Shown here piece after piece: positions 40,225 to 40,682 of a stretch of DNA of 64,000 nt. The first letter of the stretch is position 1; every line of letters starts with the position of its first letter. The position numbers were made by a program, and so were the translations under genes. Source of the DNA: Ruminiclostridium herbifermentans (GTDB lineage: Bacteria; Bacillota; Clostridia; Acetivibrionales; DSM-1351); contig NZ_CP061336.1 in the NCBI RefSeq assembly GCF_005473905.2, positions 248,001-312,000 on the forward strand, in the 5' to 3' direction. A model generated the notes under the pieces. That model made no database searches, was not told the origin of the DNA, and was given only the letters and a program-made list of their open reading frames with translations.

Positions 40225-40257
40225 CGAAGTAAGCTAAATGAAAACAACTGACGACGG

Positions 40258-40311
40258 AGTCTCATATCCCAGTATCAAACGGGTTATGGGACTTTTTTAT
40301 TAACATAAGCA
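40258..40311 (+). terminator. First nifH-leader hairpin (terminator/attenuator)
   Basis: AGTCTCATATCCC pairs with GGGTTATGGGACT, with one mismatch, around AGTATCAAAC, followed by TTTTTATT. It lies 30-80 bases after the proposed start site, so it should stop most nif transcripts unless read-through is allowed. Confidence 0.8.
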
Positions 40312-40408
40312 ATATTGCCTCCCCGCATTCAGTATATATTTAGCAATGTTAGCTTATCGGCAGAAGTTGTTTTTGTATAGTAGTTTAAAATTTATCAATA
40401 GACGAAGA

Positions 40409-40455
40409 GGTCTTCAAACACAAACGATATGTTATGTTTGAGGGCCCTTTGTTCT
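40409..40455 (+). promoter_or_regulatory. Second nifH-leader hairpin
   Basis: GGTCTTCAAACA pairs fully (with G-T pairs) with TGTTTGAGGGCC across a 14-base loop, followed by CTTTGTTCT. GACGAAGAGGTCT just before it resembles GACGACGGAGTCT before the first hairpin. Confidence 0.65.
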
Positions 40456-40541
40456 ATATATAGGAATTAACTGTGTAAGAGTTCAAAAGAACATTGGTAA
40501 TTCTAAGCTTGAATTGTAGTACCACATGGATGGCCGATCGG

Positions 40542-40568
40542 ACTTCTTATTGAAACTAAGAAGTTTTA
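40542..40568 (+). promoter_or_regulatory. Third nifH-leader hairpin
   Basis: ACTTCTTA pairs with TAAGAAGT around TTGAAAC and is followed by TTTAAA. It lies about 115 bases before nifH. Confidence 0.55.
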
Positions 40569-40682
40569 AATAATAGAGAATATTAGAGGTAGTTTATAAG
40601 CTTTTTAAAGCAAACTTTTAGTAATTGGAATGTACAACGAAATTAAAAAAATCAGCCCAGAGAGGGCAAGGGAGGTATTATT

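Follow-up and report, generated by a model that had tools for sequence, protein, structure and literature searches.

The closest described relatives of the element reported here are the EutV targets of the Enterococcus faecalis eut genes, in which a hairpin whose stem is 3 bp or longer and whose six-base loop has G at position 4 (G4) overlaps the 5′ arm of a terminator (PMC3369931). As described there, P1 and P2 lie 5-12 bases apart and carry an A at loop position 1 (A1); changing A1 to U cut both induction and binding, deletion of P1 ablated induction, and a linker lengthened to 14 bases gave drastically less induction. The EutV-RNA structure (PMC8934654) describes a contact to G4, on which Tyr164 stacks, and no specific contact to A1, and its minimal target is a single hexaloop; its authors leave single-hexaloop sites as an open possibility on which they call for work, with the dimer still visiting two hexaloops for antitermination. 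Regarding nitrogen metabolism, NitR of Clostridium saccharobutylicum is described as an ANTAR antiterminator of ammonium-assimilation genes that induces GS/GOGAT on nitrogen limitation (PMC6316151). In Pelobacter carbinolicus, putative ANTAR targets precede units predicted to matter for nitrogenase; they were identified with a dual-hairpin A1/G4 model (PMC3369931).

We analysed the nifH leader of Ruminiclostridium herbifermentans within a window of 64 kb (the whole stretch of DNA considered, NZ_CP061336.1 positions 248,001-312,000, forward strand). This leader is like the eut targets in stem length, six-base loop, G4 and overlap with the terminator 5′ arm, whereas each of its terminators has a single hairpin, loop position 1 is G, and two complete modules follow one another; the 13-base sequences compare as AGCAANGRRGCUY in eut (PMC3369931) and GACGAMGRRGUCU here. 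As NitR is tied to GS/GOGAT, the ANTAR gene lies here beside glnA, although the statement on NitR in PMC6316151 names no nif target. The Pelobacter carbinolicus targets also stand in a nitrogenase context, but the window elements are without P1 and A1, which sets them apart from the model used to find those targets in PMC3369931. They do fit the minimal single-hexaloop G4 target of the EutV structure (PMC8934654), and here single-hexaloop attenuators appear as a conserved set. A single-hexaloop nif switch was not found in print in the open-access literature searched. Taken together, the comparative evidence makes it quite probable (roughly 85%) that the leader of nifH acts as a double transcription attenuator of the ANTAR type, in a single-hexaloop, tandem variety.

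Two modules in the nifH leader

The leader begins with a promoter-like site (40196-40224) and ends at the start codon (40683); as a whole it folds more stably than its shuffled versions (z -4.68). Taken alone, the promoter call is weak, because such sites number 8 over the two strands of 39500-40800, where shuffled sequence gives 6.2; the conservation of its -10 hexamer (Table 1) supports it, so that the promoter proposed at this point in the first-pass annotation holds as a promoter-like site. Transcription would be expected to start near 40231, a position that leaves about 20 bases before module 1. The conserved box overlapping the -35 region has look-alikes, identified by eye, in more distant nifH leaders. 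A nitrogen regulator that binds DNA may use it as operator, adding a further layer of control to the RNA switch.

Table 1. Features of the nifH leader and their positions in the window.
Feature	Position	Strand	Evidence or remark
TTCGTGYATTG, a conserved DNA box that overlaps the -35 region	40188..40198	+	Invariant except Y in 5 aligned leaders
Candidate sigma-70-type promoter TTGTGA-17-TATAAT	40196..40224	+	Motif; 5 of 6 columns of the -10 invariant (5-leader alignment)
Module 1, predicted antiterminator mini-hairpin of ANTAR P2 type, GAC[GACGGA]GUC	40250..40261	+	-1.5 kcal/mol alone
Module 1, predicted intrinsic terminator with U tract	40257..40300	+	GUC (40259-40261) common to the mini-hairpin
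Module 2, predicted antiterminator mini-hairpin AGAC[GAAGAG]GUCU	40400..40413	+	-3.2 kcal/mol alone
Module 2, terminator-like hairpin with weak U tract CUUUGUUCU	40409..40456	+	Folding energy
Third hairpin, not a module	40540..40566	+	15.5 bits, E 0.43 with the module covariance model
nifH, first gene after the leader	40683..41504	+	

The core of the leader is a 13-base motif, GACGAMGRRGTCT, which occurs exactly twice in the 64 kb (40250-40262 and 40401-40413; mean 0.00 copies in 100 shuffles). Each copy can take two exclusive folds, a mini-hairpin with a six-base loop and a stem of 3 or 4 bp, or a terminator-like hairpin, the 3′ arm of the former being the 5′ arm of the latter in both modules. 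Hairpin 1 (40256-40300) has a folding energy of -17.7 kcal/mol (z -4.93 versus shuffles) and a good U tract, in keeping with its initial description as a clear intrinsic terminator. Hairpin 2 (40404-40452) reaches -19.8 kcal/mol (z -4.87) and is followed by a poor U tract, longer U runs being present at this position in 6 of the 7 other genus leaders. Neither hairpin was listed by a simple terminator scan, whose sole listed site was on the other strand. A search of the window against 4227 Rfam families gave no match at gathering score, and a permissive search of the leader gave only a chance-level 12-bit match.

In each module, then, a stem of 3 bp or more, closed by a six-base loop, sits at the base of a predicted intrinsic terminator, and judged from sequence this anatomy is that of the ANTAR "P2" antiterminator. 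The first-pass annotation had noted similar sequences just before the first two stems. The repeat at 40250 and 40401 stands, but "before the stems" was wrong in detail because the last bases of the motif form the terminator 5′ arm; the motif is the alternative hairpin. The same annotation held that the loops did not clearly fit the six-base ANTAR loop and suggested a new type of RNA switch. It had judged the terminator loops, which we also considered and which do not fit, whereas the loop of the motif itself does; since the repeated motif forms a hexaloop mini-hairpin, there is no need to postulate an entirely new type of switch.

A leader with three hairpins had been proposed, and of these the first two remain (z about -4.9), as two modules. 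The third has no U tract after its stem and lies within a stretch of about 170 bases absent from four aligned relatives, so it appears to be an insertion confined to the window leader. It was rejected as a third module, scoring only 15.5 bits and not being conserved, and the surrounding stretch was rejected as a mobile repeat, being single-copy in the genome.

Downstream of nifH come two genes of the PII family, then nifD, a nifK-like gene, nifE and a fusion of NifN/K-like and NifB parts; from their order and strand, all of these genes and nifH probably form one operon. In the fusion (ORF 46915-49653) the first half matches NifK/NifN-type models below cut-offs and the second half matches NifB above cut-off. 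Upstream, beside this molybdenum nif cluster, the divergent gene at 38882-39508 (-) matches AnfO, an iron-only nitrogenase protein (Pfam PF09582, E 5.5e-47), and between it and the nifH leader a 111-base unit is repeated in tandem (39552-39929; 3.4 copies, 88% matches). The genome holds a second nifH, 76% identical (C1:2291681), and the motif was not seen in the 480 bases read by eye there.

Conservation, covariation and co-occurrence with ANTAR genes

Our genus set comprised 11 genomes, 8 of which (the window included) have a nifH at least 92% identical; L001 and L086, apparently the same strain, are not both in this set, and L001 counts among the 77 nifH genomes considered below. In each of the eight close nifH leaders the motif is present twice and no more, always with GACGACGRAGTC first and GACGAWGAGGTC second, at a distance of 72-151 bases (151 in the window). 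A terminator hairpin accompanies each motif, and both loops of every leader have G at position 4 (GACGGA and GAAGAG in the window). Two genomes whose nifH is 85% identical (G001 and G010) are without modules before nifH, though ANTAR is present, and have one module before glnA. In G002 the best nifH is 51% identical, and this genome gave no match to R1, a covariance model of the modules (see below).

Two side observations concern nifH loci of the same genus. In L091 and L092, whose nifH leaders have no modules, GACGACGAA is kept but belongs to another hairpin, ACGA[CGAA]UCGU, after which come a long hairpin and T-rich sequence; and in L086 an Rfam TwoAYGGAY RNA (50.1 bits) lies beside the nifH locus at 1280-1433 (+), on the strand opposite nifH.

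Covariation was assessed on 28 genus modules from nifH, amtB and glnA leaders (alignment A1). Thirty modules had been found for it, from which L088_nif1 (equal to L087_nif1) and L128_amtB2 (nearly equal to that of L126) were dropped; the amtB1 modules of L126-L129, CAGC[AATGAG]GCTG, which a first scanner found and a second missed, are outside the alignment. The scanner allowed G-U pairs and required at least 3 bp, so that the figure of 100% paired modules arises by construction and covariation and a sequence-only test are fairer; neither is alignment A1 a test of G4, for which its modules were selected. In the mini-hairpin, pair 4-15 is GC in 15, CG in 7 and AU in 6 of the 28 modules; at pair 5-14, 26 modules have AU and the other 2 have GC. 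Covariation of this helix was 0.510 against 0.129 in shuffled alignments and at most 0.088 in slid versions, and that of the terminator helix was 0.753 against 0.310, with 46 double changes against 14.0, although these controls overstate independence because the rows of A1 are related. Columns 13-15 are common to both helices, and both exclusive states look as if they had been maintained, as a switch requires.

These data bear on two simpler readings. If the hairpins were plain terminators or spacers insulating nifH from upstream transcription, with no regulation, the strength of terminator 1 and the opposite direction of the gene at 38882-39508 would be accounted for; yet a conserved promoter-like site stands upstream of the hairpins, glnA, glt and ammonium-transporter genes have this module before them too, and the covarying exclusive mini-hairpin would be pointless, so we regard insulation as extremely improbable. 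Pairing of a small RNA with the motif, blocking the terminators, would suit a repeated sequence, as expected of a base-pairing target, but the stems vary between genes by compensatory changes that a pairing RNA would not follow. Moreover, the 12-base GACGANGRRGTC has 4 exact copies genome-wide on either strand, two here and two inside other genes, and exact matching over the whole genome gave no extra copy of its complement outside coding sequence. We give this reading hardly any credence.

The two features in which the modules depart from classical targets are P1 and A1, and as a member of the dual-hexaloop family the element fails on both. No strict P1 was found upstream of the 31 genus modules, and a loose P1 was found at 3, versus 3.8 in shuffles; the 40 nt upstream of these modules are unstructured (median z 0.10). 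The scan is able to detect P1, because some other nif leaders show the classical pair: of the 34 strict modules found at nifH loci elsewhere, 2 had a strict P1 (0.2 in shuffles) and 8 a loose one (4.8 in shuffles), the clearest pair being that of Clostridium paridis L034, with an 8-base linker. A looser scan above 52 nif modules gave P1-like hairpins in 14, mostly without C-G closing. At loop position 1, where both window modules have G rather than A, the genus modules have G in 18 and A in 13 of 31; in the 34 strict modules from elsewhere, A predominates (29, with G in 5).

The absence of P1 and A1 may be tolerable in view of the 2022 EutV structure, with its G4 contact and single hexaloop (PMC8934654); the definition of a single-hexaloop site taken from it, one G4 hexaloop able to exclude a terminator, is structure-based only, and both modules agree with it. 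The earlier eutP genetics (PMC3369931) speak against easy tolerance. One might regard the two mini-hairpins as P1 and P2 of a single classical target, the first aiding the second, since classical targets need two hexaloops (PMC3369931) and two are present in 8/8 genus nifH leaders. However, the motifs are 72-151 bases apart, when a linker of 14 is already drastically harmful in an EutV target (PMC3369931), the first hexaloop's own terminator would end transcription before P2 was made, and the glnA and glt leaders inspected have a single module. We judge a split dual-hexaloop target unlikely, and favour two self-sufficient modules.

We then asked how the modules are distributed with respect to ANTAR genes. 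Within 500 bases before nifH at 80 loci, the loop of hairpins with a six-base loop at the terminator base began with a purine and had G as its fourth base in 57 of 93 cases. The background, made up of the complete opposite strand and, on the nifH strand, only of sequence further than 500 bases ahead of nifH, gave 58 of 353. The loci come from 77 genomes, 52 with an ANTAR gene. Modules with an R..G loop and C-G closing preceded nifH in 35/52 ANTAR+ and 1/25 ANTAR- genomes (p 6.5e-8), and stricter RA.G modules in 25/52 and 1/25 (p 7.2e-5), while control structures with other loops were found in 16/52 and 7/25 (p 1); these p values overstate independence because the genomes are related and some are incomplete MAGs. 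No module was seen before nifH in 17 of the 52 ANTAR+ genomes, and one MAG (L064) has a module before nifH and no ANTAR gene found. Among 14 hand-listed Clostridium genomes, modules occurred in 6 of the 9 with ANTAR and in none of the 5 without; L023, a Clostridium with both ANTAR and module, was left out of this list.

The sequence-only test, in which sites were chosen by C[AG]ANG[AG]NG alone and the pairing of both next flank positions was scored, gave paired flanks at 45/64 sites in ANTAR+ leaders, 0/8 in ANTAR- leaders, 0/3 on the antisense strand and 63/498 in nifH and downstream DNA. The initial proposal of attenuation or antitermination with an ANTAR link is thus well supported by comparative evidence, both by the 35/52 versus 1/25 distribution and by the covariation of both helices.

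The candidate regulon and the ANTAR protein

Alignment A1 was used to build the covariance model R1. Of the 5978 first-look candidates in the window's own genome, 150 went on to scoring, and 91 per genome, under stricter filters, in the genomes of the order; weak modules can escape R1 because only part of the candidates was scored. Below E 1, the matches in the own genome were only the two nifH modules, the leader of amtB, CAC[AATGGC]GTG, and that of a glutamate-synthase-like operon, AGAAC[AATGGC]GTTCT (1089760, E 0.125). The latter precedes a gene for a class-II glutamine amidotransferase (by Pfam) and genes that are ferredoxin-like and GXGXG-like by appearance, whose strand and direction lead towards glnA and the ANTAR gene. 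Matches at E 2.2 and 5.8 were judged to be chance or unrelated. As a side observation, the leaders of glnA and of the ANTAR gene in this genome (L082 3465-3690 and 5018-5390) have a stretch like ATGAGGCAASAAAATGT in common.

In the genus, R1 also found glnA leaders (G001 checked by Pfam) and, in G004, G005 and G007, CAC[GATGAC]GTG before an ammonium transporter with a terminal PII piece (G004 by Pfam). The loop GATGAC is absent from the training modules of R1, and its place before an ammonium transporter means that G at loop position 1 is not peculiar to nifH.

A covariance search before other clostridial nifH genes, advised in the first-pass annotation, returned matches that include Acetobacterium and Clostridium leaders. 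Over the 80 nifH loci R1 gave 45 matches at E < 1, 37 of them no more than 300 bases ahead of nifH and on its strand, two of these being from L001, a strain also in the model. In the Acetobacterium nifH leaders L065 and L067, three matches stand in series, about 78 bases apart and about 50-270 bases before nifH. Weak matches of 21-24 bits, far from the nifH start, were seen at the Lachnospiraceae-type nif loci L004 (6460-6507), L006 (6355-6402), L008 (4-48 and 197-256) and L015 (95-140); they may mark further modules before other genes.

Across the order, 17 of 58 genomes matched R1 at E 0.01, all 17 ANTAR+, against 0 of 10 ANTAR- genomes (p 0.026), a link that adds little by itself because 10 of the 17 belong to the model's own genus; outside the genus the counts are 7/38 ANTAR+ and 0/9 ANTAR- (p 0.32). 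In 5 of these 7 extra-genus genomes, a match lies within 2 kb upstream of an ANTAR gene, on the same strand.

A search of the own genome for ANTAR proteins, also advised at the outset, yielded one gene, located at about 1.0978 Mb in a glnA/amtB/PII cluster (domain 63-65 bits), and the genes downstream of the modules are nitrogen-related. There is one ANTAR gene per genome in 10 of the 11 genus genomes and none in the eleventh (G002). Nine of the ten genus proteins were aligned, the tenth (L134) having been missed by the search pattern. The own protein keeps the EutV RNA contacts (PMC8934654) R142, K143, K147, K149, E160, M172 and R175, and is changed at Tyr164 (His), R168 (Gln), N173 (Asp) and R177 (Pro, the other eight aligned proteins having Ser). 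In 9/9 aligned proteins the receiver domain has Cys and Ser at the positions of EutV D9 and D10, which we take to be the acidic pocket, and no Asp at D54, that is, neither the acidic pocket nor the phospho-acceptor Asp of the phosphorylated two-component ANTAR type (EutV). Since the receiver is without phosphorylation residues, a partner protein, rather than a histidine kinase, probably supplies the signal; our guesses for this partner are a PII protein and glutamine synthetase. AmiR of Pseudomonas aeruginosa (PDB 1qo0), which is controlled by AmiC, has His at the Tyr164 position too, and likewise is without receiver phosphorylation residues (PMC8934654).

The leader might instead be a switch for a different RNA-binding protein that prefers the same loop, the ANTAR gene being a bystander. 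In favour of this reading, the modules have neither A1 nor P1, and the protein departs from EutV at some of its RNA contacts. But modules and ANTAR genes co-occur over the 77 nifH genomes, a match sits within 2 kb upstream of an ANTAR gene in those 5 of 7 extra-genus genomes, and the loop A2-N-G4-R5-R6 equals that of the published eut P2, AGCAANGRRGCUY, save for the stem and loop position 1 (PMC3369931). A bystander role seems to us quite unlikely, and we retain the ANTAR protein as the probable ligand.

Proposed mechanism and its meaning

In the model that we propose, RNA polymerase starting from the promoter at 40196-40224 would first transcribe an unstructured stretch of about 20 bases and then modules 1 and 2 in that order, in each of which the same bases would form either the weak mini-hairpin with its six-base loop (GANGRR) or the strong terminator. 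With no protein, the terminator would form and nif transcription would stop; the default would be off, because the weak mini-hairpin cannot outcompete the terminator alone. Two modules would stop transcription twice, so that leaks multiply and the off state would be tight, bearing in mind the poor U tract of terminator 2 in the window.

Under nitrogen limitation, the single ANTAR protein would most likely bind each hexaloop via the G at loop position 4, hold the mini-hairpin and block the terminator, allowing readthrough to nifH and onwards, by analogy with EutV (PMC3369931); one hexaloop would suffice per module, with no P1 partner. That ANTAR activity comes with nitrogen limitation is suggested by the gene set and by analogy with NitR (PMC6316151). 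Through the same module, this protein would also control glt/glnA and the genes for ammonium transporters.

More broadly, we consider it rather probable that P1-less single-hexaloop modules, two or three in series, are natural and widespread ANTAR targets for nitrogen fixation and ammonium assimilation in clostridia and their relatives, that G at loop position 1 is tolerated, and that pseudo-receiver ANTAR proteins sense nitrogen via a partner such as glutamine synthetase or PII. If such a P1-less class is real, searches requiring two hairpins would miss these targets. The modules are candidate natural single-hexaloop ANTAR sites, conserved and covarying, for the point left open by the authors of the EutV structure (PMC8934654).

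To our knowledge, on/off control of nitrogenase in the many Firmicutes without NifA-type machinery is poorly worked out. For many of these bacteria the modules would offer a concrete and testable answer, namely ANTAR antitermination by a protein encoded, here, beside glutamine synthetase.
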